A program made the position numbers and the translations under genes. From positions 62,001 through 126,000 of the forward strand of contig CAJNDS010002853.1 of assembly GCA_905221605.1 (NCBI GenBank): a stretch of 64,000 nucleotides of DNA, in the 5' to 3' direction. The notes below the pieces were generated by a model, which was given only the letters and a program-made list of their open reading frames with translations, was not told the origin of the DNA and did no database searches. Positions 37,988 to 57,986 of the stretch are shown here, piece by piece. Position 1 is the first letter of the stretch. Each line of letters begins with the position of its first letter. This DNA comes from Symbiodinium natans. Its lineage: Eukaryota > Sar > Dinophyceae > Suessiales > Symbiodiniaceae.

Positions 37988-38447
37988 CTCTCTCATAGGC
38001 AGAAACGCCCACACCGCGCCACAACACAGCTGAGAGGATCGAGGATCTAAGTTTGAGGAGTGTCGTTCTAGAGGCCTCAGTTCCAAAACTGCATCAGAGT
38101 GCAGTTTCAGGTCTCACAGTAGCATCGCTGCAGCCGATTTTGAGGCCAGAAAATTTGCTCGTAATCGGAATCGCAACAGGATGCAGTTCTGAGGCTGCGG
38201 AGTTGTGGAGTTCCACGTTTGTTACACTCCACAACTCCGCAGCCTCAGAACTGCATCCTGTTGCGATTCCTCCCTCGCAAATTTTCTGGCCTCAAAATCG
38301 GCTGCAGCGATGCTACTGTGAGACCTGAAACTGCACTCTGATGCAGTTTTGGAACTGAGGCCTCTAGAACGACACTCCTCAAACTTAGATCCTCGATCCT
38401 CTCAGCTGTGTTGTGGCGCGGTGTGGGCGTTTCTGCCTATGAGAGAG
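37988..38447. repeat. 460-bp near-perfect palindrome at the left border of the virus-like island
   Basis: The left arm starting tctcataggcagaaacgccc pairs with the right arm ending gggcgtttctgcctatgaga. Arms of about 215 bp with few mismatches flank a spacer of roughly 14 bp near 38,217. The outer 30 bp of the right arm overlap the outer end of the island's left terminal repeat. It could be a foldback element, a terminal hairpin of a replication intermediate, or an assembly artefact. Confidence 0.85.
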
Positions 38448-39090
38448 ATGCTTTTTTGCAGCCATGATGCTTTCGTGATGCGACAAAAATGCTCCGTGAT
38501 GATTTCATGATGCGGCAAAATGCTTTCATGATGCGGGAAAAATGCCTCGAAAATGCATGTCGCGCAACGCGTTCATTTGCACACGCCGCGAAACGTGTTC
38601 ATTTGCACATGCCGCGTAACGCGTGCACTTTTGCATGTCGCGCAACGCGTTCATTTGCACACGCCGCGAAACGCGTTCATGTGCCATGCCGCGCAACGCG
38701 TGCACTTTTGCATGTCGCGCAACGCGTTCATTTGCGCATGCCGCGCAACGCGTTCATTTGCACGTGCCGCGAAACGCGTTCGGTTGCAGAGTCTCTCCAA
38801 GTCTCTGCCCTTTTCCTCGGTGGGGACTCGGGGGAGGACTCAGTCTCTGCGGGGTAAATACCCCGGAAGACTGCAGTCTGTAGCAGGGGCGCGGTGCGGC
38901 GGCGCGGTGGGCATGCGGGTGAGATGGGGAGCTCGGTCCGAGAACGGTGCGGTGCGGCCGCGGTGCGGCGGCGCGGTGGGCATGCGGGGGAGATGGGGAG
39001 CTCGGGCCGAGAACGGTGCGGCGGTGCGGTGGGCGTGCGGGGGAGATGGGGAGCTCGGACCGAGAACGGTGCGGTGCGGTGGTCCGGAAC
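38418..39090 (+). repeat. Left terminal inverted repeat of the virus-like island
   Basis: It matches the reverse complement of 57,130-57,986. Outer part: gtgtgggcg, then agagatgcttttttgcagcc (38,444 on) and several atgatgcttt repeats. Middle: tandem cgcaacgcgttcatttgca units (about 38,556-38,790). Inner: three copies of a gagatggggagctcgg unit (38,920-39,090). The left copy has an extra tctg near 38,432. Confidence 0.9.
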
Positions 39091-39144
39091 GGTTATTTCG
39101 CCCTCCCGGCCATCCCGGGAATCACCGGGATGGCTCCGCGGCTC

Positions 39145-41925
39145 TCAGATCACGCTCAGGAGCTCCGCGCCCGTGGCCCGCGACGCGCCGACATAGAGAT
39201 GCTTGACAGAAAAATGCGGGTTCTCGGCGTCGCAGAGCCACACCCTCCCCCGCAGCGTGAGGCCCTGGCAGGAGGCGTACGTGACCGCGTGGCAGAGCCG
39301 CGTGTGCCGCAGCAGCTCCGCGGGCGTGAAGCTCTGCCCGTCGTCCAGCGAGATCCGCTCCCCCACCTCCCGCACCGTCGCGAAGCAGCCCTTGGGCACC
39401 CTGCCGCCCGCGCCCACGAGCCTCAGTCCGGGCCACACGCGCATCGTCTGCGGCTGGTTCGTGCCCGCGGGCCCCTGCGCCCGGTGCTCCACCAGCAGCG
39501 CTCCCTCCGGCGCGAGCCGCCGGTTCTCTCGCTCGTTGATGGCCATCCTGTGGGCGTGGGAGATGACCAGGCAGGTGTCGGGGTGGCCCCGCCGCGGGAA
39601 CCGCTCCCGCGCCGCCTGCACGGCCTCCCGCAGCGGCGGCTGCTCCGGCTCGTCCACGCGCAGCCACCGCAGGAAGCGGAAGATCGTCTCGTCGCTGCGC
39701 TGGTTCTCCGTGAGCTCGTGCACGCAGCCGCCCGCCAGGTCGTGTAGCAGCTGCGAGTCCTTCAGCGAGCGCAGCACCGGCGCGCCCCCGAAGGCGTCCT
39801 GCACGGCGGGCAGCTGCCGGAAGTCGCCCAGCAACAGGAAGCGCACCCGGCGGTTCGTGGAGAGCTCAGCGATGTCGGCCCACAGCCCCACGTCGAGCTG
39901 CGTGACCTCCTCCACCACGAGCCAGTCCAGCTCGCAGCGGCCCGCGCGCACGGTGCGCCGCACCCAGTGGTCCGCCGTCTGCGCCCCCAGGCCCAGGTTC
40001 TGCACGCTGCAGCGCGTCTTCGAGATGAGCGTCACGTCCTCGCCCTGCGCCGAGAGCTGCGCCACGATCCGCCGCGCCAGGTGCGTCTTCCCCGTGCCCG
40101 GCATGCCGGAGAGCAGCAGGCTGCCCCCGTCGAGGCAGTGCGCCACGGGGTCCTCCACGTGCCTCCAGGGCTCCTGCGGCGGCGGCGGCTCCGTCTCCAG
40201 CCGCGGCTCTCGGTAGTCTCCCTCCAGTCGCTTCACCTCCTCGAAGCGGTACTTCGGCGTGCCGTCCCGGTGCCGGTGCCGCGTGAGCGCCTCCACGGCG
40301 GGCAGGAACTTTTTCGGCAGGCCCTGGCAGACGAGGCAGTCGGTCTTCAGCGCCACGAGGTAGCGGGGCGGCACCTCCCGCAGCGCGCGGTGGATCCTCG
40401 CCATCGCCACGTACTCGGAGGCCATCACGAAGTCGTGCGCCGGGCGCGTGGAGCGGTTCGTGAAGAGCTCCGTGGCGTAGACGTGGTCGTAGTGGCAGGC
40501 GCCCGCGGCGTCGAAGAAGACCTGCAGGAACTGGGAGCCCCAGGCGTCCGCCTCGTGGCTGCTCGTCCTCATGGAGTAGAAGACGTCCTTGGAGCGCGCC
40601 CACAGCCCGATGAGGGCGTTCACGCTGAGCTTCGCGAAGTGCTCCTCGCCCTCGGGCCAGCCCCCCTCCATGACCTCCAGCGCCCGCGCCAGGCAGTCGG
40701 GCGCCACGTGGGCCGTGGCCTGCAGGGACCACTCGCAGTCCGCCCATCTCGCCAGGCCCGCGTCGAGCATGTAGGCCACCGCCGGCTTCCCGTACCAGCC
40801 CGGGCCGACGTAGGGCAGCCGCGCCAGAAAGCCCTCGCGCTTGTCCTCCCGCTTCCGCACGAAGGTGAGGTCCGCCAGCTGCCCCTCCTCCGCCGGCCGG
40901 ATGCTGTCCAGGGGGCAGAAGACGGGCAGCGGGAAGGGGGCGTTGGCCAGGGCGTTCTTCCGGCACCGCACCACGTCCACGCCCTGGCACACCTTCTCGG
41001 GGTTGCATTTCGACAGGCCGCACACGAGGGGAGGCAGCCGCGGGGAGCAGGCGTAGCTCTCGTAGACGTGGCGGCAGAAGCGGCTCTCCAGGCTCGTGGC
41101 GTGGGAGCACTCCAGGAACGTCTTGGCGCGGTGGCACTCCAGGCACAGGGCCTGCAGTGGCTGCCGCTGCCCGAAGAAGGACTGGTGCACCGGCACCACG
41201 TGGTCCGCCTCGCAGCTGCCCGCGTCGATGGGCGCGGCGCAGAGCGCGCAGGCTCCCCGCTGCTCCCGCAGCAGCCGCTGCACATCGCCGCGGTCCCGGC
41301 GCGCCTTCAGGAGCGCTGCGAAGACCTCGCTGGCCGCGCCGGCGAGCCGCTGCCCGCGGTACACGAAGCCCAGCTTGCCCATCCACGCGTCCAGCACCTC
41401 CGCGTCCTCGGGGTACTCGTGAATGACACAGTCTCCCTGCTGCCCCCGCACGCGCAGCCGCAGGTAGCGCCACTCCACGAGCCCCCGCAGGACCACCTTG
41501 GGTTGGTGGCCCTCCGCGAGCAGGCGGGAGCGCGCGACGCGCAGGTCCTTGGCCCAGTAGTGCCCGGGCTCGAGGGCGCCCTGCCACTCCCGCCACTCGC
41601 CGAAGGGCGGCACGGTGGACTCCCGCCGCTCCCCGCGGTAGCTCGGAACGTCCCGCGGCTCGCCGTCGCACCAGGCCACGGCCCGCGCGCTCTTGTAGAA
41701 GTAGGCGTGGTCGCGATACACGCACAGCGCCAGGGCCCGCTCCTCCTTCACGGGCGGCTCGTAGCAGTCGATCATCTGCCCCCGACAGTTCACGATGAAG
41801 AGCGGCGCCTTGCGCCACTCGCAGAACTGCCGGATCTCCTTGCCGGTGACGCCCCTGCGCTCCCAGCCACGGGGGCAGATCGCGTCGAAGTCCGAGTAGA
41901 TCTCCTCGAAGGGGAGCTGCAGTCC
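39145..41925 (-). CDS. Replication protein, main part: family-B polymerase-like palm, HNH motif and SF1 helicase
   Basis: The frame (882 residues from 41,793, open upstream to about 41,925) has three parts. An HNH-type zinc endonuclease motif lies at residues 180-225 (ACALCAAP, EADHVVP, LCLECHRAK). A family-B-polymerase-like segment follows at 270-490: VVRCRKNALANAPFPLPVF, GPGWYGKP, motif B K-x3-N-x3-G in AKLSVNALIGLW, and motif C YLVALKTDCLVC, where KTDC replaces DTDS but keeps the second Asp. Residues 555-882 form an SF1 helicase: GMPGTGKT, VVEEVTQLD, LLLGDFRQLPAV, VTYASCQGLTL and YVGASRATG. It would replicate the element. The polymerase call rests on motif order only; the helicase is secure. 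Confidence 0.7.
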   Translation of the reverse strand, partial: GLQLPFEEIYSDFDAICPRGWERRGVTGKEIRQFCEWRKAPLFIVNCRGQMIDCYEPPVKEERALALCVYRDHAYFYKSARAVAWCDGEPRDVPSYRGERRESTVPPFGEWREWQGALEPGHYWAKDLRVARSRLLAEGHQPKVVLRGLVEWRYLRLRVRGQQGDCVIHEYPEDAEVLDAWMGKLGFVYRGQRLAGAASEVFAALLKARRDRGDVQRLLREQRGACALCAAPIDAGSCEADHVVPVHQSFFGQRQPLQALCLECHRAKTFLECSHATSLESRFCRHVYESYACSPRLPPLVCGLSKCNPEKVCQGVDVVRCRKNALANAPFPLPVFCPLDSIRPAEEGQLADLTFVRKREDKREGFLARLPYVGPGWYGKPAVAYMLDAGLARWADCEWSLQATAHVAPDCLARALEVMEGGWPEGEEHFAKLSVNALIGLWARSKDVFYSMRTSSHEADAWGSQFLQVFFDAAGACHYDHVYATELFTNRSTRPAHDFVMASEYVAMARIHRALREVPPRYLVALKTDCLVCQGLPKKFLPAVEALTRHRHRDGTPKYRFEEVKRLEGDYREPRLETEPPPPQEPWRHVEDPVAHCLDGGSLLLSGMPGTGKTHLARRIVAQLSAQGEDVTLISKTRCSVQNLGLGAQTADHWVRRTVRAGRCELDWLVVEEVTQLDVGLWADIAELSTNRRVRFLLLGDFRQLPAVQDAFGGAPVLRSLKDSQLLHDLAGGCVHELTENQRSDETIFRFLRWLRVDEPEQPPLREAVQAARERFPRRGHPDTCLVISHAHRMAINERENRRLAPEGALLVEHRAQGPAGTNQPQTMRVWPGLRLVGAGGRVPKGCFATVREVGERISLDDGQSFTPAELLRHTRLCHAVTYASCQGLTLRGRVWLCDAENPHFSVKHLYVGASRATGAELLSVI

Positions 41926-42698
41926 GCGATTTGGCGCACCACGCAGAGCCTGTCCGCGCGCTCCTCGAAGGCGCTCTCCAGGAGCTCCGAGCCCCTGTAG
42001 AGCTGGTAGGAGACGTCCCGCAGGGCCCCCAGCGGCTGGCGCAGCGTCACCTCCGTCTCCACCTGGTTGTTCTGCGCCACCTGCATCGTCTGCTTGGAGA
42101 CGCCCCAGTCCCGCGAGGCGTCGAATGTGTATTGCTCCTCAGAGAGCTCCATGACCACGTCGCCGTCCGCGGGGTTCCCCATTTTGCGCAGCGCGGCCGC
42201 GATCACGTTCCGGTGCTGCTGCACCTCGCTCAGCCCGGCGTTCTGGCGCCCGAGGCCGTCCAGAGTCACGGGCAGGAAGTCGTCCCTCTGGTATGGCTGC
42301 CCGCGTCGCCGCCTCCCGCGGATCCTCACGGGCATGTGGGCGATGTAATCTGTCCACTTGTCACGGAAGAAGGCCTTGCCCAGCTTGGTGACGCGGTAGC
42401 TGCCGTCGGGCTGCAGGCTCCGCACAAGTTTCTTGGCGCCTCCCCGTAGCAGAATGTAGTCATTCGGGCCGTCGCGCACGAGCGGCTGCGCCTCGTTGAA
42501 GCGCCGGGAGGGCGGGCGCCGCCCGACCAGCTGGTAATAGAACTGCCCGGCGCGGGTGGGCTGCCCGTCCGGCCGGGCGAGCAGCAGCTGCTGGGCGTTG
42601 GGGAGGCGCAGGAGCTCCGAGCCCTGCGGCGAGGTGCGCGCGGAGATGCCCGCCTCCACGGCCCGCCGGATTCTCTCGCGCTGCTGCGCCCAAGACAT
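41915..42698 (-). CDS. Replication protein, N-terminal part (separate frame)
   Basis: A frame starting MSWAQQRERIRRAVEAG at 42,698, preceded by agtaaatc just before the ATG. It runs through LCVVRQIAD and then should pass to LQLPFEEIYSDFDAI, which lies one frame over and leads into the polymerase-HNH-helicase ORF. The slip is at about 41,919. The reading after it (CSSPSRRSTRTSTRS) looks like out-of-frame GC-rich sequence, so the annotated C-terminus at 41,790 is false. The joined protein would be near 1,170 residues. The N-terminal 250 residues have no recognised motif; the junction block resembles the region before the catalytic part of viral family-B polymerases. Confidence 0.6.
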
Positions 42699-42706
42699 GA
42701 TTTACT
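42696..42706 (-). promoter_or_regulatory. TAAA-type start-proximal motif, replication protein
   Basis: agtaaatc directly precedes the ATG on the minus strand, in a GC-rich context. Confidence 0.5.
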
Positions 42707-42742
42707 ACCCGCCCCTCGGCGGCGGCGGTCGGGCGAACGCGT

Positions 42743-43207
42743 TTAGAAGGGGCACTGCGGTTTGGGGGAGGGCGTCCAGGGCAGGTTGCCCCAGATCCTC
42801 GTGGGTTTACGGTACAAATAGCCGAACTTGCAGTAGGTGACGTCGTGGAAGGGCAGCCCGGCCATGTACTCGCGCGTCTTCAGCAGCCCCGTGGCCGGGT
42901 TCTCGAGGGCCCACCACCTGGGCTTGAGGTAGTCGATGATCTCGAGGGCCTTGAGGACCAGCGCGTCGCCGGCCGGCAGGTCGCGGGGGCGGTTCCTGAG
43001 GGCCATGGAGAACTCGGTGCACACGGGGCTCGCCCAGACCATGTCGAAGTGGCCGGGAGCGTAGTCCCTGTACTGCCACTGGAGGATGTCGCAGCAGATG
43101 GTCGGGCGGGCCTTGGCGTTCAGGTCGAGGCTCGTGACCTCCCAGCCGCGGGCCTCGAAGGCGCGGCCCACGGACCCGGTGCCCGAGAAGAGCTCGAGCA
43201 GCCGCAT
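42743..43207 (-). CDS. Small cytosine-C5 DNA methyltransferase-like protein of the provirus
   Basis: A 154-residue protein beginning MRLLELFSGTGSVGRAFEAR (motif I), with SLDLN after the second strand, MVWASPVCTEFS in the position of the PPC loop (SPVC keeps the catalytic Cys), WWALENPATG (motif VI ENP) and CKFGYLYRKPTRIWGN (motif VIII/IX-like). The size fits the short C5-methyltransferase-fold proteins of algal viruses and phages; no target-recognition domain is present. It may modify element DNA or be a non-catalytic relative. It reads leftward, upstream of the replication protein, with an A7 run just before its ATG. It shares the KPTR block with the retroelement B methyltransferase-like domain. 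Confidence 0.75.
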   Translation of the reverse strand: MRLLELFSGTGSVGRAFEARGWEVTSLDLNAKARPTICCDILQWQYRDYAPGHFDMVWASPVCTEFSMALRNRPRDLPAGDALVLKALEIIDYLKPRWWALENPATGLLKTREYMAGLPFHDVTYCKFGYLYRKPTRIWGNLPWTPSPKPQCPF

Positions 43208-43211
43208 TTTT

Positions 43212-43341
43212 TTATGACCACGGTTCCTCCCACGGTCTCGCGAGGACCCACAGCACGGCGACGCCGCCGGCCAGCGTCAGCGCGACGCACAGAAACTCCC
43301 CGAAGCTCACGGGGCTCCCGGCGCGTTCACAGGGCGGCATT
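43212..43341 (-). CDS. Small single-pass membrane protein
   Basis: From the ATG at 43,341 (preceded by eight A) a 42-residue peptide MPPCERAGSP... contains one hydrophobic helix, FLCVALTLAGGVAVLWVLA, and ends RPWEEPWS. It sits between the methyltransferase and the divergent rightward genes. Short membrane proteins are common in such viruses; function unknown. Confidence 0.5.
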
Positions 43342-43472: not shown

Positions 43473-44066
43473 GTGATTTGGAACCCATCCTGCTACGGCG
43501 ACCCCGAGGCGGTGCGCGTGTCCATGTGCCTGGAGCCCGACGAGGCCGCCCGGGCCTTCTTCCGCGAAACGGAGGAGCTGGTGACCAAGGCGCTGTCGGA
43601 GCACTCTCAGCGCGACTCCCGCATCTTCGGCAAGCCCCTGAAGCCCGAAGAGGTGAAGGAGCGGATGACCAGCGCGCTGAAGACCAGCACCCGCGGCACG
43701 GAGTTCCTCAAGTTGAAGCTCCACTACGACAAGATACGCCTGTGGGGACCAGACGGCGAGGAGCTCCCTGTGCAGAAGTGGGACCTGCAAGGTTGCTTGT
43801 GTAAAGTCCACGTGGAGCTGCGCCAGGTCTGGCTGATGAGCTCCCAGTGCGGCGTGCTGGCGGAGGTCACGGACGTGATGCTGCAGCAGGCCGAGCCCCG
43901 CGGCGTCTGCAGGAAGGGCGACCGCTGCGAGGCCTTCGACGGCCGAGGGCACCCTGCGAGCGCGCAGCGGGGCTCCCGCAAGGGCTACGAGGGCAGCTTC
44001 TTCAGGGACGATCTGTACTCCACTCCTCCCCCCCTCTGCGACGAGATTGCCGGGAGCGTCAGTTAA
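43473..44066 (+). CDS. Probable OB-fold/ssDNA-binding-like protein
   Basis: A 197-residue frame without a clear upstream ATG: it opens at a GTG (43,473), and the first in-frame ATG is 43,524 (MCLEPDEAARAFFRETEE). The core alternates strands and turns: EFLKLKLHYDKIRLW, GPDGEELP, LQGCLCKVHVELRQVWLM and GVLAEVTDVMLQQ. This resembles the OB-fold single-strand-binding proteins of large and Polinton-like viruses (lysine-rich strand, G-x-x-v strand, W at the strand end). The C-terminal 60 residues are polar and disordered. The assignment is by pattern only. It is the first rightward gene and precedes the ATPase by 48 bp. Confidence 0.4.
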   Translation: MIWNPSCYGDPEAVRVSMCLEPDEAARAFFRETEELVTKALSEHSQRDSRIFGKPLKPEEVKERMTSALKTSTRGTEFLKLKLHYDKIRLWGPDGEELPVQKWDLQGCLCKVHVELRQVWLMSSQCGVLAEVTDVMLQQAEPRGVCRKGDRCEAFDGRGHPASAQRGSRKGYEGSFFRDDLYSTPPPLCDEIAGSVS

Positions 44067-44106
44067 AAATGTGCTGCGGGCTCCACGAGTGCTACCGCGC
44101 GCTCTG

Positions 44107-44117
44107 GGTAAAGAATG
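44107..44117 (+). promoter_or_regulatory. TAAA-type start-proximal motif, packaging ATPase
   Basis: ggtaaagaATG, with the ATG at 44,115. Confidence 0.5.
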
Positions 44118-44942
44118 GGCAAGGTGCGTCTCTTCAAGACGCCCGACTACACCGTCAAGCAGCCGCCCGATCCGGTGGTCTGCAAACCTCCCGCCAACGG
44201 GATCCTCTGCGCGCCCTCGGCCAGCGGGAAGACCGTTCTCCTCGTGTCGATGATTTTGGAGCAGTACCGGGGCTGCTTTGAGCGCATCTACATCTTCTCG
44301 CCCTCGGTGGAGGTCGACTCCGCCTGGCAGCCCGTCAAGGACTACATCACAGACGAGCTGGGCGTGAACACGGACCGCGAGCAGTGCTGGTGGGAGGACT
44401 GGGACGAGGGGGCGCTCCGGAAGATCATCGCGGACCAGAAGCGCATCACGCAGAAGTCCAAGGAGCTGGGCCTCAAAAAACTATATCAGGTATTGATAGT
44501 TTTGGACGACCATGCCGATAACCCCGCGGTCCACCGCAAGACGGGAGACGGCGTGCTGGACACGCTCTTCATCCGCGGCCGGCACTTCTGCATCAACACC
44601 TGGGTGAGCACCCAGAAGCTGCGTCTCATGAGCTCCGCCGTGCGGGTCAACGTCATGTTCTACTGCGTGTTTCGCTTGCGGAACCAGCTGGAGCTGGACG
44701 CCCTGGTGGAGGAGCTGAGCGCCATGCTCCCCAAAGAGACCCTCTACGCCATGTACGAGGAGGCCACGCGGGAGCCCTATTCGTTTTGGATGGTGAACCT
44801 CCGCGCGCCCAAGGAAGACATGTTTTGGGTGCGCTTCGACCGGAAGTTCCTCGTAAACGGCGATGGGCAGCCTGCTGAGCCAGATGGCGGCCAAGCTGCT
44901 GGGCGGGGGTCCGATCTGCGAGAGCGAGTGCAACAACCTTAG
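44115..44942 (+). CDS. A32/FtsK-HerA-type genome-packaging ATPase
   Basis: 275 residues. Walker A ILCAPSASGKTVLLV (about residues 30-44) and Walker B YQVLIVLDDHAD (124-135) fit the FtsK/HerA superfamily packaging ATPases of Polinton-like viruses, virophages and nucleocytoplasmic large DNA viruses, which pump DNA into preformed capsids. A sensor-like region INTWVSTQKLRLMSS follows near residue 160, as in A32. The length is in the usual 220-300 range. The gene starts with ATG right after a taaa motif, is intact, and its last 80 bp overlap the start of the penton-like gene in another frame, typical of compact viral genomes. Confidence 0.85.
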   Translation: MGKVRLFKTPDYTVKQPPDPVVCKPPANGILCAPSASGKTVLLVSMILEQYRGCFERIYIFSPSVEVDSAWQPVKDYITDELGVNTDREQCWWEDWDEGALRKIIADQKRITQKSKELGLKKLYQVLIVLDDHADNPAVHRKTGDGVLDTLFIRGRHFCINTWVSTQKLRLMSSAVRVNVMFYCVFRLRNQLELDALVEELSAMLPKETLYAMYEEATREPYSFWMVNLRAPKEDMFWVRFDRKFLVNGDGQPAEPDGGQAAGRGSDLRERVQQP

Positions 44943-45699
44943 GTGCTGCACCGAGGAGTCGGCCGCCAGCGAGTTCCCGGCGCGGCGCACGGGGATTTTC
45001 CGCCGTAAGAGAAAGCTCATGACCTCCATCTACGTGGACTCGCGCAAGCTGGCCGTCTACAAGGTGCGCATCGCCGACGCCTTCCTGAGCACGGACCGCG
45101 GGACGTTTTTGTACTGGGAGGACGAGGTCGCCGGCACCCTGCACTACGCGGAGCTCCCCGTGGGCGCGCACACGGGCCCTCGGCTGGCCGCCTGGATCAG
45201 CAGCAACTTCGCCGCGGCCACGTACACCGCGGAGACCAACGAGCTGGACGTCACCTACGACGGCGTGCACCTGATCCTCAACGACGCCGAGCTCCGGCAG
45301 CGCTTCCCGGGCACGGGCTCCTACCCGCCGGGCGCCTCGCCCAGCAAGCCCCAGTCCATCAACCACCTCCTGGGCCCCAGCTACCTCACGGGCTCCGTGC
45401 AGCGCTTCATCTTCGTCCAGATGAACGTGTACTCAGAGCTGTACTTGCGCTGCCCCTCACTGGCCAACGGCGAGACCACGGTGGGCCCGCTGGGCCACGA
45501 CATCCTCTGCAAGATCATCGTCTCCAAGAGCGTGGGCCACATCATGGAGACCGAGACCTCGGAGGGCCACTGGGTTCAGCTCCACGGGCCCATCACGCTG
45601 CGCCACCTGCGCTTCAAGCTCACCGACTACCAAGGCAACGTGGTGAACACCAGGGGCACCAGCGTTTCCTTCGTGGTGTTCCTCGACACCGAGCGATAA
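44863..45699 (+). CDS. Penton-like minor capsid protein
   Basis: 278 residues in a single frame. After a Cys-rich N-terminal 50 residues comes YVDSRKLAVYKVRIADAF, characteristic of the (I/V)DSR opening of Polinton-like penton/minor capsid proteins, and a beta-rich body ending LGHDILCKIIVSKSVGH, PITLRHLRFKLTDYQGN and VSFVVFLDTER, strands expected of a single jelly roll. It would form the capsid vertices. The start is ambiguous: MGSLLSQMAAK at 44,863 overlaps the ATPase gene and carries an N-myristoylation-type MGxxxS, while Met at 45,019 directly precedes the conserved DSR. Its position after the ATPase supports the call. Confidence 0.65.
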   Translation: MGSLLSQMAAKLLGGGPICESECNNLRCCTEESAASEFPARRTGIFRRKRKLMTSIYVDSRKLAVYKVRIADAFLSTDRGTFLYWEDEVAGTLHYAELPVGAHTGPRLAAWISSNFAAATYTAETNELDVTYDGVHLILNDAELRQRFPGTGSYPPGASPSKPQSINHLLGPSYLTGSVQRFIFVQMNVYSELYLRCPSLANGETTVGPLGHDILCKIIVSKSVGHIMETETSEGHWVQLHGPITLRHLRFKLTDYQGNVVNTRGTSVSFVVFLDTER

Positions 45700-46965: not shown

Positions 46966-48287
46966 GAGGAGCGGCGCGCGCACGGCTTCCGCGTCAAGCC
47001 CTCCTACTCTCAGGTCCTGGGCTTCATCGCCGAGGGCGAGCCCCTGCCGATCAACCTCCCGAACCGCAACGCCAGCATCTACACCTCCAGTCACTTCTGG
47101 CTGGACGACTACCCCCGAGCTCGGAGCCCGAGCCAGCGCCGTTGCCGCACACGACCGTGGACCCCGCGGCGGCCTACGAGGACGCCAACGAGGGCTACGA
47201 TGGCGTGCCCTTCCCGAGAAGGGACTTCCTGCGCCCACGGCCCTTCGACCTGGACAGCGAGTCTGATTTTGGGGCTGTGGATCCCGGGCAGGCGCTGAGA
47301 AACGACGGGTTTCAGCCGCCGCCGGCGCCGGGCTTCCTGGGGCGCCTGCAGCAGGCCGAGGCCGCGGCGGGAGCGGCGGCGGGGCTGGCGGGCTCCGCCT
47401 CCGCCATCACGGAGCACGGGCAGGACCTCTACAACGCCGCGCGCAGGGGTCGCAACTGGATCGACCGGAACTTGCGCATCCCGCGCACGCCCGAGGGCCT
47501 CGCGCCCCCGCCCGACGAGGTGGCCCCTCCGCAGATCATCGGGAGGCCCAGCGAGGTGGAGCCGCTCCTGGAGCGGGCGGGGCAGCGAGCCCAGGAGGTG
47601 GAGCGGGCCGCGGCGCGCGACATCGAGCAGTTCATGAGCCAGCAGATGGCTGAAGCAGAGGCAACCGAGGGCTTCGCTTCCGCGGCGGAGGCGGCCGCGG
47701 GGGCAGCGGAGGCGGCCACGGCCGCGGAGGCGGGAGGAGGCACGCTCGCGGCCATCGGCTCCGGGCTGGCCGCCGCCGGAGAGGCTGCGCTGCCCGTAGC
47801 CGCCACGGTGGGAGCGGCGGCGGGAGGCCTGGCAGTGGCGGGCGCGGGCGCAGCTCTCGTGGGCACCGCGTGGGCGCTGCACGGGGGCATGGTGGCGGCA
47901 GAGCACCTGATGGGCTGGGGGGGAGGAGGCGGAGGCTGCCTCCCGCTCCAGCTCCGCGCCCGACATCCAGACCCTCAACGGCATGCAGGAGTTTGGGGCG
48001 GAGCAGCACTTCCAGGTCCGGGAACAACGCCCGAGGCCCCGGTCTACCGCATGGACACCGAGAGCGAGGCCGAGCCGCGGGCGCAGCCGCCCCCGAGGGT
48101 GCAGGCCCGCCCCGCGAGGCCCACGCGCTTCCCCACGGGCCTCAACCCCGCTCCCCTGGCGCAGTCCTCGGGCAGCGAGTCCTCCCGCGCGCCGCGGATG
48201 CAGCGTCAGGCCTCAGACAGGTCCCGCGCGGCACCACCGCCTTCCTTCGAGGCGCTTCGCAGCGCGAGCGAGCCGGAGGCCGCGTGA
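46963..48287 (+). CDS. Ala/Gly-rich hydrophobic virion-type protein (frameshifted)
   Basis: From the ATG at 46,963 the frame reads MEERRAHGFRVKPSYSQVLG to SSHFWLDDYP, then must slip in a C5 run near 47,116 into the frame that holds AAYEDANEGYDGVPFPRRDF. A long Ala/Gly helix follows (AAEAATAAEAGGG, then LPVAATVGAAAGGLAVAGAG and TAWALHGGMVAAEHLMGW), a glycine-zipper-like membrane-active segment. A second and third slip near 47,935 and 48,030 surround IQTLNGMQEFGAEQHFQV before the Arg/Pro-rich tail. The layout recalls amphipathic minor virion proteins placed next to the capsid gene, such as adenovirus pVI/pX-like proteins in Polintons, but no homology is shown. Indels in homopolymers may be assembly errors. 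Confidence 0.5.
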
Positions 48288-48301: not shown

Positions 48302-48313
48302 AGTAAAACCATG
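48302..48313 (+). promoter_or_regulatory. TAAA-type start-proximal motif, major capsid protein
   Basis: agtaaaaccATG, with the ATG at 48,311; nearly the same as that of the fibre gene. Confidence 0.55.
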
Positions 48314-49518
48314 GAGCAGGTGACTGCTGCCGTGAACGACGAGCTGGTCCAGAGCCTCGACTACAAGCTCCAGTCGAGCAACGTCAATTACGTGCAGAGC
48401 CGCAAGGATGTGCAGTACTACCCGAGCTCCCTGAGCGTCTTCACGCCGACCACGAGCCGCGTGTGCCGCATACCGCTGACCAGCGGCATGGACTTCGTGG
48501 ACGGGGAGTCTGTCAAGCTCGGCTTCACGGTGCGCAACAACTCCACCACGGCCACGCTGCAGCTCGGCTCGCCGGACCCCAGCTGCCTCATCGACCGCGT
48601 CGAGGTCTTCGCCAACGGCACCCGCATCGAGGACATCTCCTACTACAACCACTGCTCGTATTTGTACAGCCTCCTGAGTGGTGGCTGAACCGGCACATCC
48701 AGGGCTTTTTGGCGGACGGCGGGGGCCACGCCGCCGAGATCGCGGCCTCGGGCTCCCGCACCGTGCTCATGAGCCCGCACCTCATCGGGATCTTCAACTG
48801 CGGCAAGATGCTGCCCCCCGAGCTCAACCTGGTGCTCCAGATCACCTTCGCCGACCCCTCGGACGCGGCCCGCAACGTCAGCGCGAGCCAGGACTACACC
48901 ATCGAGAACGTGAAGCTCTACGCCTCCCAGGTGACCCTCGACTCCGCCCTCCGCGAGAGCTTCCGGAGGATCATGACCAGCGGCCGCAGCCTGATCTTCA
49001 GCTTCCCGACCATGCACACGCAACTCTCTTCCGTCCCCGCCGGGTCCACCAGCTACAACATCACCGTGGCCCGCGCTTTCACGAAGATGCTGGGCGCCTT
49101 CGTGACCTTCAACAAGACCACGGAGGACCACGTGGACAATTTCGAATACGCCGGAGCGAACGCGAACCGGAACCTCAAGGGCCAGCTGCAGCTGGGTGCC
49201 TTGCAATATCCTCGCACGGCCAACGAGAGCATCGCCGAATGGCATCACTTTTTGGAGATTCTGGCGGGAACCTACGACTCCAAGCTGCGCAACATGCGCA
49301 TCCGGGACAACCTCTTCGGGAACTCGCAGTTCATCGCGGCCTTCCCCGTGGAGCGCGTGCCGAAGCACCCGCTCTCGGGCATCTCCACGCGCTCCGGAGA
49401 CCTCTGCCGCTTCAGCTTCTCGAACATGGAGGCGGAGCGCGTGGACCAGTGCTTCGTGCACATGCTGTCCTACCAGCTCGTGACGCTGTCGGGCGCGGGG
49501 GTCAGTTCCCTGGATTAG
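48311..49518 (+). CDS. Probable double-jelly-roll major capsid protein (one frameshift)
   Basis: About 400 residues in two frames. The first (48,311 to about 48,675) starts MEQVTAAVNDELVQSLDYKL and has strand-rich SGMDFVDGESVKLGFTVRN and CLIDRVEVFANGTRIEDI. After a 1-nt slip near 48,675 the second gives EWWLNRHIQGFLADGGG, GIFNCGKMLPPELNLVLQIT, YTIENVKLYASQVTLDSAL and LVTLSGAGVSSLD. Two successive beta-rich halves, a size near 400-500 residues, and the position between the hydrophobic virion protein and the fibre fit the major capsid protein of Polinton-like viruses, which forms the icosahedral shell as pseudo-hexameric trimers. The assignment rests on pattern and context; a structure prediction would decide it. 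Confidence 0.65.
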
Positions 49519-49529
49519 AGTAAAACATG
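49517..49529 (+). promoter_or_regulatory. TAAA-type start-proximal motif, fibre gene
   Basis: agagtaaaacATG, with the ATG at 49,527, 8 bp after the capsid stop. Confidence 0.55.
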
Positions 49530-52429
49530 AGTCTCTTTTCTTCCACGATCACAGGGAACGTGCTCAACGACGGGGAGACCCCCATGGCCACGATCGAGGT
49601 GACCGGCGTCACCGCGGGGCAGCTGGCCACCGTGCTGACCCAGTACACGCCCCTGGAGACGACCACCAGCAACACCGCCTCCATCGGCACCAACTCCGCC
49701 GCCGTGGCCGCGCTGCAGACGCAGGTGGCGGCCATCCCCGCGCCGCCCGATCTGACCCCATACGCTCTGGCGGCCGACCTCGCAGCAGCCGAGGGCCTCA
49801 TCGCCGCCAACCAGTCCTCCATCACCTCCCTCAGCACCAGCCTCACCACGGGCCTGGCGGGGAAGGCGAACCAGTCGGCCCTGGACGCCCTGCAGCTGGA
49901 CGTGGACGGCAAGAGCACGCCCGCCTCCGTGGACCTGAAGCTGGCCAACCATCCCACCAACGCCTCGATGAACAGCGCGATCACCAGCGCCAACAACGCC
50001 ACGCTGGCCACGGTGGCGGCCAACTACGGGCTGAAGAGCACGCAGGATCAGCAAGCCCTCGACATCGCGGCCCGGCAGACGGCCGCGGACGTCTGCCAGG
50101 CCATCGCCACCGCGCTCCTCCCGTACACCGACACCAGCAGGCTGAACAGCGCGGTGGCCCTGCGCACCACGCCCGCGGACGTGGACCAGAAGATCGCGAC
50201 GGCGCTGCTGCCCCTGGTCGCCCAGACGGCGCTGGACGCAGCCCTCGCCCTCCGCGACGGGCGGCTCGACGCCGCGGAGGCGGCCCTGGCGACGCTGCAG
50301 GCAGCGGGCTTCCAGTCGGCTGCCGACGTTGCGGCGGCGCTCGCCACGGCCCTCGCGGCCTACACCGATACCGCGGGGCTCAACGGTCTATTGGCCGTGC
50401 GGGACGCGCGCCTGGACGGGGCACGACGCGGAGATCCTGGCCCTGCAGGGAGCGGGGCCCTTCGCCACCTCGGCCGACCTCTCGGCCTCCGAGGCGAGCC
50501 TCCAATCGGCCATCGACGCGCTCAACTCCGCGCTGGCCGCGCTCACCACGGGCGGCGGCACGAACCTCGCCAACGCCCAGGCGTGGCCCGGGCAGACGAC
50601 CTGGGACCTCCTGGTGGGCACCAACACCATCCGCAACCTGCACTTCAGCGGCGCCCCCCTGAGCGTCTCCCTCGAGAACGACAACTTCACGCTGTCCCTG
50701 GCCTGCGACGCCTACACGCAGGCGGAGGTCACCGCCCTCCTGGCGCCCCTGGCCAGCGAGTCCTGGGTGCTGGCCACCCTGGGCGGCTACTACACGAGCG
50801 CCGAGACCAACGGGGCCATCACGGCCGCCCTGGCCGCCTACTACGACTCGGCCCAGACGGACGCCGCCATCGCGGCGGCGCTCGTGCCCTACTCAACCAC
50901 CGTGCAGATGGACGCCGCCGTCGCGGCCGCGCTGGTGCCCTACAGCACCACGGCGCAGATGGACGCCGCCATCGCGGCCGCCGTGGGGGCCATCGACCTC
51001 TCCGCCTACAGCACCATCGCCGCCCGGGACGCCGCCATCGCCGCCGCGCTGGTGCCGTACAGCACCACCGTGCAGATGGACGCCGCCATCGCCGCGGCCG
51101 TGGGGGCCATCGACCTCTCGGCGTACAGCACCGTGGCTGCCCGGGACGCCGCCATCGCGGCCGCCCTGGTGCCCTACAGCACCACCGTGCAGATGGACGC
51201 CGCCATCGCGACGGCCCTGGGCGACTACGTGCCCTGGATGGGGCTCCAGGCCCCCATCGTCAACGAGATCAACATCGCCCTGACGGACTACTGGGACCAG
51301 ACGGAGACTCCCGCTACTTTCCCACGAACGGGAACGTGGAGGAAGGGGGCATCTACACCATGGTGCTGGAGCAGTTCACGCCGCGCATGATCCGGGCCCT
51401 CCTCCCGCCGGCGCCCCTGAGCGCCACGCCCATCCTGGGCAACGGGGCGACGCTGCGCCTCAACGCGGACTGCTACTCCAAGGCGGAGAGCGACTCCCGC
51501 TACGCCACGCCGGCCGACCTGGACGTCATCAGCTGCACCAGCCTCACCGCCAGCAGCTTCGTGAACACGCTCAACTTCGCCGCCACGGGCAACGTCTCGG
51601 GCGTGGACGCGCTCTTCACGGTGGACGTGCAGACGCCGCTGCTGCGGGCCGTGAGCGGGGACGGCTACCTGCGCTTCGGGGGCGGGCTGGTGGGCCTCCA
51701 GTTCCTGGACAGCGGCGCGGCCGTCGTCGACGAGATGACCTCCTCCCAGATCGCTCTGGAGCAGGACGTGAACGTGGCCCAGAGCAGGACGCTCGCCTGC
51801 GCCAGCATCGCGACCACGGGCGGCGTGGCCAACCTGGCCATCCAGGGCGGCACGCAGGGCATCGTCTGCACCTCCAAGGGCCTCAACGTCACGGAGAACT
51901 TCCCGCTCTCCGCCAACCCGACGGACGGCAACGTGGCGGTCCGCGTGGAGAACACGGCCCCCACGGGCTTCGCGATGCTGGAGATGAGCGCCAACGGGGG
52001 CGCGAGACGCCGTCCACGGGCGGCTGCACGCTCTACGCGCCCAACCAGGAGATCTGGCTGCAGAACCGCACGAGCGGCTCCGCGCCCCTGGTGGTGGAGA
52101 CGGACTCGGACGTCACGGTCAACTACGGCTTCAACAACCTCAGCGACGAAAAGGTGAAGACGAACATCGCGGACGCGGACCTGGAGGCGCTGCAGGCCAT
52201 CTTCGACGGCGCCCACCCGAAGACCTACGACCGCACAGACATCGAGCACTACGGCCGCCTGGGCTTCCTGGCCCAGGACTTCCTCGGGGCGGGGGTGACG
52301 GGGAAGACCTACAGGGACGGGGAGGAGCTGCTGACGCTCGACTACAGCAGGCTCACGGCCGTGCTCTGGGGCGTCGTGAAGAAGCTCCAGGCCCGCGTGG
52401 CGGCGCTGGAGAAGAAGCCCAAGAAGTAA
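49527..52429 (+). CDS. Virion fibre with coiled-coil repeats and C-terminal peptidase-S74 chaperone domain (frameshifted)
   Basis: Roughly 965 residues over several frames. The N-terminal 600 residues are Ala/Thr/Asp-rich heptad-like repeats, including several copies of [16 protein letters not shown] and [17 protein letters not shown], expected to form a trimeric shaft. A beta-rich head follows ([19 protein letters not shown]). The C-terminal 110 residues are an S74 intramolecular chaperone: [52 protein letters not shown] and ARVAALEKK. In phage tail spikes this domain trimerises the fibre and then cuts itself off using Ser and Lys. Frame slips near 50,420, 51,310 and 52,005 break the gene. 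It is probably the host-attachment fibre of the virion. Confidence 0.75.
50860..51230 (+). repeat. Tandem coding repeats in the fibre shaft
   Basis: Repeats of about 60-120 bp encoding VPYST..QMDAA and [14 protein letters not shown] modules, four to five copies at high DNA identity. Confidence 0.75.
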
Positions 52430-52436
52430 GAAAATG
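52425..52436 (+). promoter_or_regulatory. TAA-rich start-proximal motif, integrase
   Basis: agtaagaaaATG, with the ATG at 52,434; it overlaps the fibre stop codon. Confidence 0.4.
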
Positions 52437-53591
52437 GCGGAGGAGGCGGCGCTCCAGTTCTTCCGGGGCCTCGCGGAGGAGTACAACGCGCGGGACCCAA
52501 GGAAGCTCCACCAGCTGGCCCGCAGGGATCACCCCGAGCGCAGGGACCTGACGGCGGCGCGGGCCCGCCAGGCCCTGCGGGGGGACGTGGCGCGGCAGGT
52601 GCTAGCGCCCAAGCCGCGGAGCCTGGGCAAGAGCGCGGCGGAGGGCCCCAACGACCGGCTGCAGGCGGACCTGGTGGACTTCTCCCAGAACACCCGGGGG
52701 AGGAACAAGTACGGGCTGGCGGTGACCGACGTCTTCCCGCGGGAGGTGGCCACGAAGGCCCTGCCCGACAAGCAGGCGGAGACGGTGACCCAAGCCGCCG
52801 CCGAGATCATCCCGAAGCTGGTGGAGGAGGAGGGCAACTACGTGGTCACGACGGATTTGGGAAACGAATTCCAGGGCCTGGAGGAGGCGCTCCCGGAGCC
52901 CGCGGTGCACCGGCACAAGCGGCCGGAGGACCGGAACGCGCTGGCCGTGGTGGACAGGGCCATCCAGACGCTGAAGCGGGACCTGGCCGGGAAGGTGGCC
53001 CGGGACGGGGGCGGCTGGGCGGAGCACGTGGAGGGGGCCGCGGAGGCCTACAACAAGCGCCCGCACGAGGCGGTGCACGCGGCGCCCGAGGATGTGGAGA
53101 AGCAGCCGGCCACCACGTTCCGCGTCTACCAGGACAACGCGAGGAAGTTCCAGCACAACCGGGAGCTCACGGAGGGCCGGCAGCGGCGCCTCCAGGAGGC
53201 GGGGGCCTTCCGCGCCCCCACCAACGCCCAGAGGAGCTTCCAGCCCCAGTACGGGCCCGTGAAGCAGCTGGCAAGCTACGACTCGATGACCGTGCGGGCC
53301 ACAGACGGCACGGAGGGCCTGCTGAAGCACGTGCAGCCCGTGCCCAAGGCCAGCGGGGAGCCTGTGCAGAGGCTCACGCAGCCGGGCGTGCCGCTGGCCG
53401 CCAGGCAGCTGCGGGACTTCAACGCCGCCCCTGGCCCTGCCCCTGGCCCTGCGGCGGCTGCCCCTGGCCTTGCCCCTGGCCCTGCGGCGGCTCCCAAGGC
53501 CGCCGCGGCGAGGAGGCTGCCCCTGGCCGTGCGGCAGCTGCGCGACTTCAACGCCCCGCCGCCCGCCAGGGCGCCGCGGGAGCTGAACTAG
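52434..53591 (+). CDS. Retroviral-type (rve/DDE) integrase of the provirus
   Basis: 385 residues, uninterrupted. The catalytic core shows Asp in RLQADLVDFS (about residue 79), Asp in YVVTTDLGNEFQ (141), and NALAVVDRAIQTLKRDL (174), where the usual Glu is Asp, 33 residues after the second Asp as expected for a DDx35E core. GGWAEHVEGAAEAYNKRPHE matches the conserved W and YN..PH block. A chromodomain-like or SH3-like tail is not evident; instead the C-terminus has two RQLRDFNAPP-type repeats in Pro/Ala-rich sequence. The protein would insert the linear viral DNA by its terminal repeats. Asp in place of Glu may be a lineage trait or affect activity. Confidence 0.85.
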   Translation: MAEEAALQFFRGLAEEYNARDPRKLHQLARRDHPERRDLTAARARQALRGDVARQVLAPKPRSLGKSAAEGPNDRLQADLVDFSQNTRGRNKYGLAVTDVFPREVATKALPDKQAETVTQAAAEIIPKLVEEEGNYVVTTDLGNEFQGLEEALPEPAVHRHKRPEDRNALAVVDRAIQTLKRDLAGKVARDGGGWAEHVEGAAEAYNKRPHEAVHAAPEDVEKQPATTFRVYQDNARKFQHNRELTEGRQRRLQEAGAFRAPTNAQRSFQPQYGPVKQLASYDSMTVRATDGTEGLLKHVQPVPKASGEPVQRLTQPGVPLAARQLRDFNAAPGPAPGPAAAAPGLAPGPAAAPKAAAARRLPLAVRQLRDFNAPPPARAPRELN

Positions 53592-53649
53592 GGATCACTT
53601 GGGATCCAAGCAAAAACTGCGCGGCCACACGGGAGTGCTTCGGGGGCGC

Positions 53650-54424
53650 GTGGGATCCGAGCAAAAACTGCACAGCAAAACGGCTTCCTTACAGGTCAAG
53701 GAGGTGCTGCCGCACACGGCCACGTGCTTCGAGAGGGGGGCGCGTGGGATCCGAGCAAAAACTGCAGAGCAAATCGGCTTCCTTACAGGTTAAGGAGGTG
53801 CTGCCGCACACGGCCACGCGCTTCGAGAGGGGGGCGCGTGGGATCCGAGCAAAAACTGCAGAGCAAATCGGCTTCCTTACAGGTTAAGGAGGTGCTGCCG
53901 CACACGGCCACGCGCTTCGAGAGGGGGGCGCGTGGGATCCGAGCAAAAACTGCAGAGCAAATCGGCTTCCTTACAGGTCAAGGAGGTGCTGCCGCACACG
54001 GCCACGTGCTTCGAGAGGGGGGGCGCGTGGGATCCGAGCAAAAACTGCAGAGCAAATCGGCTTCCTTACAGGTTAAGGAGGTGCTGCCGCACACGGCCAC
54101 GCGCTTCGAGAGGGGGGCGCGTGGGATCCGAGCAAAAACTGCAGAGCAAATCGGCTTCCTTACAGGTTAAGGAGGTGCTGCCGCACACGGCCACGCGCTT
54201 CGAGAGGGGGGCGCGTGGGATCCGAGCAAAAACTGCAGAGCAAATCGGCTTCCTTACAGGTTAAGGAGGTGCTGCCGCACACGGCCACGCGCTTCGAGAG
54301 GGGGGCGCGTGGGATCCGAGCAAAAACTGCAGAGCAAATCGGCTTCCTTACAGGTTAAGGAGGTGCTGCCGCACACGGCCACGCGCTTCGAGAGGGGGGC
54401 GCGTGGGATCCGAGCAAAAACTGC
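53650..54424 (+). repeat. 94-bp tandem repeat array
   Basis: Nine starts of gtgggatccgagcaaaaact at 53,650, 53,744, 53,838, 53,932, 54,027, 54,121, 54,215, 54,309 and 54,403, i.e. a 94-bp period (one 95), with a diverged start near 53,600. Internal order: aaatcggcttccttacagg, then aaggaggtgctgccgcaca. Since 94 is not a multiple of three, successive units read in different frames, so it is probably not coding. The last unit is cut after aaaaactg, where the next gene begins. Confidence 0.95.
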
Positions 54425-54430
54425 AAGCCG

Positions 54431-55606: not shown

Positions 55607-55768
55607 GGCGGCATTTCACGAGGGGGTAGGCACTCGGGACAGCAGCATCGCCCTCGGAAAAAAAAGCCGGCAGACCCGCTTTTTTTTATGGAACCAGGCA
55701 CGGTAGGGGGACATGAACGCAAACGCCGTGCAGCCATTCAGCCCTTCCCAGCAACGCCCTAGGGCGCC

Positions 55769-56110
55769 ATGGACAGCTCGGACAGCAGCTGGGAGGAGGA
55801 CGAGCGGCTCCCGAAGCCGCCGCCGCGGGTGGACCGGCGGAACCGCGTCTTCGCGCGGCTGAAGCAGGACGTGAAGGAGGCCCGGGCCCTGCGGGCCTGC
55901 GGCGCCAGCTTCCTGGACCCGCACCTGCTGGCCTGGCGGGCGCGGGAGGCGGAGGAGCGCCTGGAGGCAAAGGACCGGCGCCTCCAGCAGCAGCGCGATG
56001 CGGCCCAGCAGCTCTTGCAGCCCAGGCACCACCAGGTGCAGGGTCACCGTGCCGCTTCCTGCTCCCGCCTCCTGCGGGCTTCCTCCTCCCTGCCCCACTG
56101 GGCCGCGGCT
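55769..56110 (+). CDS. Small acidic/charged helical protein
   Basis: From the ATG at 55,769 the first 90-100 residues look natural: MDSSDSSWEEDERLPKPPPR, FARLKQDVKEARALRACG, LLAWRAREAEERLEAKDRR. They would form a charged helix or coiled coil. Beyond about 56,060 this frame turns into Ser/Leu/Pro-rich sequence that is antisense to the opposite-strand gene at 56,000-56,643, so the true end is uncertain. No family recognised. Confidence 0.4.
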
Positions 56111-56643
56111 TCCTCCTCCTCCCGCCTCCTGCGGGCCTCAGATTCCTCCCTGGTTTTTGGGATGCCGCTTCCTCCTCCTCCCGCATCCTGCGGGCCTCAG
56201 CTTCCTCCGCCCTCTGGGCCGCGGCTTCCTTGGCCCTCTGGGCCGCCGCTTGCGGGCCTCAGCCTGGGCCGCGTCCCTCTGGGCCCTCTCCTCCTCCTCG
56301 ATGCCGCGGGACATGTCCTCCTCCGTCCCCTCCACCGCACCGCCAGCCCTCTCCCGGGCTGCCTCCATCGCAGCTCTGCGCCTCCGCTCCTCGATGTCCT
56401 CCCTCCTCCGCCGGGGCCTGGGGGGGGCCTGCCACCGCCGCCGCCGCCGTGGCCCCGCCGTGCCCTGGACACCGCCGCTCCCATCATGGAGCCCCCCTGC
56501 CCACTTCCAACCTCCGCCGTTACCACCTCCTCCGTGGGCGCCACCTCCGCATCCTCCGCCAGCCCCTTTGGCCCTGCTAGGGCCATCTGGAGCACGCACA
56601 ACGCGAGCACCGCCAGGGCTCCTCCTCGCATGAAGCTCGCCAT
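56000..56643 (-). CDS. Secreted or membrane-anchored coiled-coil protein (frameshifted)
   Basis: The Met at 56,643 begins MASFMRGGALAVLALCVLQM, a good signal peptide or signal anchor, followed by an acidic stretch and a Gly run. In Gly/Pro-rich sequence the conserved-looking frame shifts to DIEERRRRAAMEAARERAGG and MSRGIEEEERAQRDAAQAEA, and then again near MREEEEAASQKPGRN (56,186). Both are long Glu/Arg/Ala helices. At least two indels, again in GC-rich homopolymers, separate the parts. It is convergent with the small charged protein at 55,769. Function unknown. Confidence 0.35.
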
Positions 56644-56730
56644 GGGGTCAGGAGTCTCCGTTGCTACCAAAACTGCCTATGCCTAGGCTGTGAAAGTCTG
56701 TGAAAGTGCCTTAAGGGTTTCGAGGAGTGT

Positions 56731-56885
56731 GCCCCATGGAGGTGCTACGGTGCTGTGCCCCATGGAGGTGCTACGGTGCTGTGCCCCGTGGAGGTGCTAC
56801 GGTGCTGTGCCCCATGAAGGTGCTACGGTGCTGTGCCCTGTGGAGGTGCTACGGTGCTGTGCCCTGTGGAGGTGCTGTGCTGCTA
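56731..56885 (+). repeat. 27-bp minisatellite
   Basis: Five to six units of the type ggaggtgctacggtgctgtg preceded by ccccat/ccccgt variants, between the last genes and the right terminal repeat. Confidence 0.85.
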
Positions 56886-57129
56886 GTGTTGCTGCTGTGT
56901 CCCCAGACTCGTGTTGCTGTCAAACCCTTGAACCATGGAGCGGCGCGGCAAACATGTTAAGGTTCAGGGCCTTCTCGGAGGGGGGATCGGGCTTAGGGGG
57001 CTTGTGCAGGGCACTTGGTTGGCACTCCTACGGGGCAGCAAGGGGGTTAGGGCTGCAGGGCACTCTAGAAAAATCGGTTACACGGCGAAAGTCAGTGGTT
57101 TTTGATCATCAGTTTCAAGTTTTCGCCGC
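56886..57129. other. Short non-coding stretch inside the right terminal repeat
   Basis: About 245 bp with no gene or motif recognised. Confidence 0.4.
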
Positions 57130-57986
57130 GCGCCACCACCGCCGCACCGCACCGCGCCGCCGCACCGCCCGCCGCACCGCACCGTTCTCGGCCCGATCTC
57201 CCCATCTCCCCCGCATTCCCACCGCAGCGCACCACCGCACCGCACCACCGCACCGCCGCACCGTTCTCGGCCCGAGCTCCCCATCTCCCCCGCATGCCCA
57301 CCGCACCGCACCGCCGCCGCCGCACCGCCACCGCCGCACCATTCTCGGCCCGAGCTCCCTCCCCCGCATGCCCACCACAGCCCACCGCACCACCGCACCG
57401 CCGCCGCACCGCGCCGCCGCGCCGTTCTCGGCCCCAGCACCCCATCTCCCCCGCACCCCCACAGCGCACCGCACCACCGCACCGCCGCCGCAGGCCCGAG
57501 CTCCCCATCTCCCCGCATGCCCACCGCGTACCGTGCCGCGCGCACCGTTCTCGGCCCGAGCTCCCCATCTTCCCGCATGCCCCGCGCGCCTGCGCACCGC
57601 CGCTGCACCGCACCGCGCCCAGACTGCAGTCTTCCGGGGTATTTACCCGCAAATGAACGCGTTGCGCGGCATGTACAAATGAACGCGTTGCGCGACATGC
57701 AAAAGTGCACGCGTTGCGCGGCATGGCACATGAACGCGTTTCGCGGTGTGCAAATGAACGCGTTGCGCGACATGCAAAAGTGCACGCGTGACGCGGCATG
57801 TGCAAATGAACACGTTTCGCGGCGTGTGCAAATGAACGCGTTGCGCGACATGCATTTTCGAGGCATTTTTCCCGCATCATGAAAGCATTTTGCGGCATCA
57901 TGAAATCATCACGGAGCATTTTTGTCGCATCACGAAAGCATCATGGCTGCAAAAAAGCATCTCTTTCATAGGAACGCCCACACCGC
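57130..57986 (-). repeat. Right terminal inverted repeat of the virus-like island
   Basis: Reverse complement of 38,418-39,090 with more units. Six copies of the inner ctcggcccgagctccccatc unit (57,183-57,570) against three on the left, then the same gactgcagtcttccggggta block, the cgttgcgcgacatgcaaaag array (57,643-57,870), and the outer aaaaaagcatctct and cgcccacaccgc (57,975-57,986). Confidence 0.9.

Follow-up and report, generated by a model that had tools for sequence, protein, structure and literature searches.

The block at positions 37988-57986 of the window (the whole 64,000-nt stretch of Symbiodinium natans DNA analysed here) is a decayed integrated copy from a family of Polinton-like viruses (PLVs), with an rve integrase and a Tlr1-like replication protein, that has multiplied in the genome of this species. 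Several copies, read at their ends, show that the integrated unit of the family runs from palindrome to palindrome and that insertion leaves a 7-bp target site duplication (TSD). We put at about 0.6 the reading that the palindromic ends of this multiplied family, of which the block is a decayed member, would serve as hairpins in free linear viral DNA. PLVs are already known from dinoflagellates; the palindromic ends and the true left end at 37988 are new. The first-pass annotation of this DNA had recognised a Polinton-like element that carries viral genes and is integrated in the genome of a dinoflagellate, which gene content and paralogues support. Absent from it were the palindromic ends, which are the unusual feature of the family. 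The features by position in the window are:

37388-37987: host flank, a high-copy repeat; left integration junction at 37987/37988
37988-57986: whole block, GC-rich, between inverted repeats; PLV copy
37988-38447: left terminal palindrome, arms 37988-38211 and 38226-38447, 14-nt loop
38448-39090: left inner inverted repeat; contains tandem repeats of 26 bp and of 53-77 bp
39145-41775, minus strand: polymerase-HNH-SF1 helicase, C-terminal 876 aa of a split gene (palm, HNH nuclease, SF1 helicase)
41790-42698, minus strand: N-terminal part of the polymerase-helicase gene, in another frame than the remainder
42743-43207, minus strand: N-terminal part of a C5 cytosine methyltransferase, in the opposite orientation to that of other copies; DNA_methylase over cut-off
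43524-44066, plus strand: chimeric ORF, unknown protein (residues 1-125) joined to a stretch (126-180) that in other copies is the C-terminal part of the methyltransferase
44115-44942, plus strand: A32-like packaging ATPase, open frame
45013-45699, plus strand: penton-like (minor capsid) candidate with an in-frame loss of 24 residues
46142-46945, plus strand: ORF of unknown function, open frame
47634-48287, plus strand: ORF of unknown function
48311-49518, plus strand: major capsid protein candidate, one frameshift (48311-48688 / 48769-49518)
49527-52426, plus strand: repetitive fibre gene, S74 tip within 52001-52426
52434-53591, plus strand: rve integrase, open 385-aa frame
53642-54425: 94-bp tandem repeat, 8.3 copies at 98%, directly downstream of the integrase
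57144-57986: right inverted repeat, truncated about 27 bp into the inner arm of the palindrome
57987-58587: right flank, inside a second, different high-copy repeat, at least 40 copies at 96-97%

GC content was 0.62-0.74 per kb inside 39-58 kb versus 0.48-0.61 outside the block, in agreement with the sharp rise described earlier. The inverted terminal repeats also described were located at 38436-38662 and 57746-57972 (227 bp, 99% complementary), embedded in longer repeat-rich arms. Such repeats, and the 20.6-kb unit between the TSDs of the copy on contig C1755, match the terminal inverted repeats and 14-40 kb size of PLVs, as does the presence of an A32/FtsK-type packaging ATPase: the predicted ATPase scored 26.6 bits with Pox_A32 (cut-off 22.8) and matched the terminase phrog_2666 at 1.5e-9. 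The S74 assignment of the fibre holds by 0.9 bit (Peptidase_S74, 22.9 bits against a cut-off of 22), and the gene changes frame at least three times by eye. For the integrase, the open frame, an apparent catalytic triad DD33D read by eye, and a 93-95% identical copy in C1755, spread over two frames, support the earlier assignment, while its rve score of 23.9 bits lies under the Pfam cut-off of 32.6.

The two candidate capsid genes belong to families that we regard as real and conserved on the strength of their homologues. For the penton-like protein, 252 of 583 candidates matched at E<=1e-3, mostly 220-320 aa long and adjoining the ATPase, and the closest homologues retain the 24 residues missing from the window copy. 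For the major capsid candidate, 278 of 672 candidates passed the same threshold, and the homologues P0001 and P0002 are single ORFs of 405-414 aa. Pfam gave chance-level matches only for both, with no meaningful family for the penton candidate, and the capsid profile had no PDB match. A 479-aa member of a second capsid-like family aligned over its whole length with the window family (hhalign 99.9%, 27% identity); the solved-structure search with this second family returned weak unrelated matches only. The methyltransferase of the window copy appears to be split by an inversion. In the other copies shown that match both parts of the chimeric ORF, the two are encoded on different strands, residues 126-180 downstream of the methyltransferase and on its strand; relative to the copies shown, the N-terminal part and its neighbouring ORF are inverted.

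The virus had been called complete; however, the capsid, fibre, polymerase-helicase, penton and methyltransferase genes are damaged and the right terminal palindrome is gone. With five damaged genes and this lost end, the window copy is probably unable to make virions by itself. Part of its frame changes could be assembly errors. The ATPase and integrase frames are both open, and intact capsid and polymerase ORFs are present in homologues. An Rfam scan of 36-60 kb gave nothing at the gathering threshold, an NCBIfam scan gave below-cut-off matches only, and IMG/VR scans for relatives gave no confirmed locus.

The polymerase-helicase proposed earlier was recovered with palm, HNH nuclease and SF1 helicase in a gene split by a frameshift within an OTU-like region; in homologues of about 1130-1260 aa a single ORF spans the two parts. 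AAA_30 and HNH scored above their Pfam cut-offs. The palm carries KLSVNALIG and KTD, which we take to be motifs B and C. In an alignment of 19 rows, which include the two pieces from the window, K690/N694, K785-T786-D787 and GxPGxGK fell within columns at least 90% conserved; kept across the family are the K..N of motif B, the shortened motif C (KTD), the Walker A loop and, in the HNH, the C/H positions and the D-H pair. At the level of sequence, a palm with motifs B and C followed by a C-terminal SF1 helicase makes this a Tlr1-like pPolB-S1H protein. The separate full-length pPolB with exonuclease of Polintons sensu stricto was not found, the protein being a palm-HNH-SF1 fusion. PolB was absent from the Pfam matches of the scans, the solved-structure search matched nothing, and no terminal-protein domain was identified in the polymerase-helicase; OTU-like Cys/His stretches adjoin the palm, by eye only.

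The replication module is therefore less unusual than first described, since pPolB-S1H proteins and HNH-helicase fusions are covered in the available parts of PMC11071308 and PMC12220804. According to the former, OTU, palm and SF1 helicase are combined with homing nucleases in Tlr1-like proteins, and palm and SF1 helicase share one protein, with a homing-type nuclease, in Tlr1, transpovirons and TvV-S1, as they do here. The missing first Asp of motif C is a further likeness, and an OTU-like region before the palm, read by eye, may be another; polymerases without the same Asp can be active, and the OTU-type region has been linked to terminal-protein release (PMC11071308, same parts). In the Tlr1-like elements described there the nuclease lies at the C terminus, whereas in the window family the HNH precedes the palm.

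The family ends in near-perfect palindromes of about 455 bp with the end motif CTCTCTC...GAGAGAG. In the left palindrome of the window the outer stem is perfect over 171 bp; an 8/6-nt asymmetry separates it from a 45-bp stem, which a 14-nt loop closes. The palindrome folds at -299 kcal/mol versus a mean of -67 in 100 shuffles. The block had been placed from 38418 onwards, but homology common to the copies extends left of that position to 37988, within a few bases, and the palindrome bounds this homology. TSDs of 7 bp were found in three of the four elements with both outer ends read: GCCCGCA on C1755, TTCAATG on C1867 and TCCCACT on C322. The fourth, on C347, has a truncated left end and no TSD. 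As the units between the TSDs measure 10.7 kb on C1867 and 3.2 kb on C322, shortened elements exist; neither of these two has a match to the ATPase or capsid, and only their ends tie them to the family. Both palindrome arms are present at both ends on C1755 and C347, and one arm is kept at the right end on C322 and C1867.

Searching the genome with the palindrome sequence gave at least 67 matches, grouped by hand into 40 clusters (best 40 of 66 candidates scored). The PLV inner repeat lies within 0.7 kb in 21 of the 40 clusters (chance about 0.002), and an ATPase or capsid match, taken from 50 of 140 ATPase matches and 56 capsid matches, lies within 30 kb in 11 (chance about 0.2). One marker or the other accompanies 26 clusters, and 14 have no PLV marker nearby. 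Two loci of 2-3 kb, C322:61270-64485, which has a clean 7-bp TSD, and C1380:434037-436332, carry palindrome matches at both ends and are candidate non-autonomous derivatives. Outside the left palindrome on C1755 (L013:560-763), sequence matching part of the integrase was observed; this copy may have inserted into another PLV.

The alignment of 14 palindromes (218 pairs, 2989 cells) shows that the two arms evolve together. Paired cells made up 99.4% versus 92.5% in shuffles, but the informative part of the test is the two-sided changes, which occurred in 206 cells versus a shuffle mean of 61.8 (0 of 500 shuffles as high); 62 of the 218 pairs had changed on both sides versus 31 in shuffles. Sliding the arms by 1-3 columns left 37-44% paired, with at most 7 pairs and 19 two-sided cells, a comparison in which the true register is favoured because the pairing structure was derived from one of the aligned sequences. 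Further pair types did not rise above shuffles (78 versus 76.5; 180 of 500 as high). In 16 of 22 looped palindromes, those with at least 150 aligned arm positions, the own arms were 90.6-100% alike versus medians of 85-90% to other elements, above the median in all 16; in 7 of the 16, some other element had an arm that was closer still. In the tree, outer and inner arm were mutual closest relatives in 9 of the 16; the other 7 were mixed with very close copies, among which (C2541, C389, C1755; C347) inner arms partly group with inner arms. The median tree distance, 0.019 versus 0.170, also counted for co-change. The family thus has what is looked for in a hairpin telomere, a terminal palindrome with concerted arms.

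The exact loop pattern was present at 20 sites and the control pattern at 0. With orientation taken from the inner repeat, the TSD pair or genes, 14 were as in the window, 4 reversed and 2 without orientation; the ATPase side alone orients C1861, among the 4, and C2373, among the 14. Over 22 palindromes, 18 loops were as in the window and 4 inverted. The stem asymmetry had the window polarity in 13 of 18 readable palindromes, was symmetric in 5 and reversed in none, and the three inverted loops with both arms readable all sit on symmetric stems. Free hairpin inversion predicts reversed asymmetry, so parvovirus- or poxvirus-like hairpin replication is only suggested by these data; what most weakens the hairpin reading is the lack of any reversed stem, which also weakens a simple AAV-like flip/flop. 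An end kept in a single orientation, as the left end of a parvovirus is reported to be in the available part of PMC1185569, would fit better than free inversion. Many copies share one centre and keep the asymmetry and TSDs although their arms have diverged, which speaks against an artefact of foldback reads.

A dinoflagellate-type host had been proposed, and a motif that we take to be the DinoSL core gave 205 exact matches versus 0 for the reversed pattern. The left-flank repeat has at least 40 further copies at 96-98% (40 scored of 122 candidates), and one, on C337, matches through 37987 and then continues differently, which makes it an empty site. At least 140 matches to the ATPase were found in the genome (140 scored of 408 candidates): by hand count, 39 at 82-100% identity, including the window itself and some gene fragments, 15 at 49-73% and 86 at 40-45%. 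That the block is a contaminating contig, a caveat raised earlier, is unlikely: the left junction interrupts a host repeat whose uninterrupted form exists elsewhere, and the ATPase has 39 close matches and no fewer than 101 at lower identity, many on other contigs. The right-flank repeat extends upstream of 57987 in at least 40 scored copies at 94-100%. The right flank is thus the interior of a repeat, and the right junction is a later rearrangement or an assembly join rather than an integration junction. As the right palindrome is lost, a TSD is not readable for the window copy.

Under the hairpin reading, the rve integrase would make the insertion, the ends of the free linear viral DNA would fold into hairpins, and in replication one arm would template the other, in the manner of parvoviruses or poxviruses. 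Copying of these ends would fall to the fused polymerase-helicase that the virus encodes, and the conserved HNH nuclease may be the nickase that resolves them. Tentatively, and with more doubt than confidence, we extend this to a PLV lineage in which self-folding hairpin ends stand instead of or beside a terminal protein, the Tlr1-like polymerase-helicase copies them, the HNH acts as their resolvase, and the integrase, recognising the palindromic end, leaves the 7-bp TSD. A rather unlikely but serious competitor is an ordinary PLV, protein-primed like Polintons, whose palindromes are kept alike after integration by gene conversion or recombination at the centre and play no role in replication. 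The OTU-like stretches next to pPolB-like motifs hint at a terminal-protein route, the polarity of the stem asymmetry is conserved, and gene conversion by the host could also keep arms alike. However, host conversion should erase the asymmetry too, yet it persists in 13 of 18 palindromes, and the co-change of the arms at 62 of 218 positions across 14 palindromes, in units from 3.2 to 20.6 kb, argues against this competitor.

Two further explanations are much less probable. One makes the palindrome a foldback or MITE-like element in its own right, lying beside PLV ends as target or hitch-hiker. It would account for the 14 clusters with no PLV marker nearby, but we consider it very improbable: the TSDs enclose whole units, no 7-mer matches on the two sides of the single palindrome in the window or on C1755, and the palindrome is low-copy and sits at both ends of the elements on C1755 and C347 and partly on C322 and C1867. 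A contaminating viral contig or an assembly chimera is equally hard to credit. The right junction, where a truncated PLV end meets the interior of an unrelated high-copy repeat, has the look of a chimera, but the left junction matches the empty site exactly, and other contigs carry many paralogues, of which some have host flanks and TSDs.

Small eukaryotic DNA viruses include those with protein-primed ends, those with hairpin ends (poxviruses, asfarviruses) and mixed systems (bidnaviruses). How protein-primed ends gave way to hairpin or mixed ends becomes a testable question with this PLV family, which offers conserved palindromic ends and a recognisable polymerase type in an alga with a sequenced genome; if the hairpin reading is true, hairpin-ended PLVs would connect protein-primed polymerases to telomeres of the parvovirus or poxvirus type. 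The exact boundaries, set by the end motif and the 7-bp TSD, allow insertions to be counted and dated and short non-autonomous derivatives to be found.

Among known elements, the endogenous PLVs of dinoflagellates described as the 'Dino group' by Bellas et al. 2023 (PMC10120064) are likewise high-copy and integrated, with capsid genes, integrases and inverted repeats in protists including dinoflagellates; the available part of that paper does not mention palindromic ends, which the window family has. Dinoflagellate PLVs also appear in the accessible part of PMC11071213. The Symbiodinium PLVs in the portion available of PMC12220804 share the HNH fused N-terminal of the helicase, a size of 14-40 kb, terminal inverted repeats and, in part, rve. 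Their TSDs are typically 5-6 bp, with 5 bp in one Polarella PLV and one imperfect 7-bp case, whereas the window family has 7 bp in three of three readable elements, compared with 6 bp in Polintons/Mavericks, and its palindromic ends of 455 bp. OmPLV of Oxyrrhis marina, as far as PMC12721341 is available, is also a dinoflagellate PLV with decayed copies and a helicase-polymerase fusion, but it has about 25% GC, an N-terminal helicase, a Y-recombinase and no TSD; the window family is GC-rich, with a C-terminal helicase, rve and the 7-bp TSD.

Parvoviruses (PMC1185569) and poxviruses or asfarviruses (PMC11788076), again in the parts available, share the imperfect terminal palindrome with a loop and stem asymmetry. 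Their ends are hairpins, whereas the present family is known from its sequence, and the scans made of the family gave no Rep/NS1-type or pox-type resolvase. No report of hairpin, palindromic or flip-flop ends in a PLV or Polinton appeared in the titles and the beginnings of abstracts of the papers listed, in a search mostly outside subscription journals; the accessible parts of PMC11814242 and PMC11788076 report no such ends for PLVs, and that of PMC5182062, on Tlr elements, says nothing of their ends.

Further copies are present in the same genome. Fourteen near-identical ATPase copies lie on C2338, C112, C1018, C1302, C1826, C1852, C269, C50, C428, C1894, C1753, C343, C864 and C194, contigs that are not among the listed matches of the inverted repeats or palindromes (for the latter, the best 40 of 66); these copies may have other ends or may have been amplified by another route. 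Amplification of a broken ATPase was ruled out: the stop common to all fourteen is at residue 269 of 275, so they are merely slightly shorter; one has a further stop at residue 163. The capsid gave at least 175 matches when 150 of 344 candidates were scored; a distant family, whose ORFs are often 480-490 aa long, is among them. C1065, C1110 and C1806 each carry two equal-score capsid matches 8053 bp apart, either because a unit is duplicated or because one locus was assembled more than once. Among the 120 matches listed per protein, the homologues named by organism are from Symbiodinium, save one capsid homologue, P0078, filed under an Alphaproteobacteria metagenome bin, which is probably dinoflagellate contamination.
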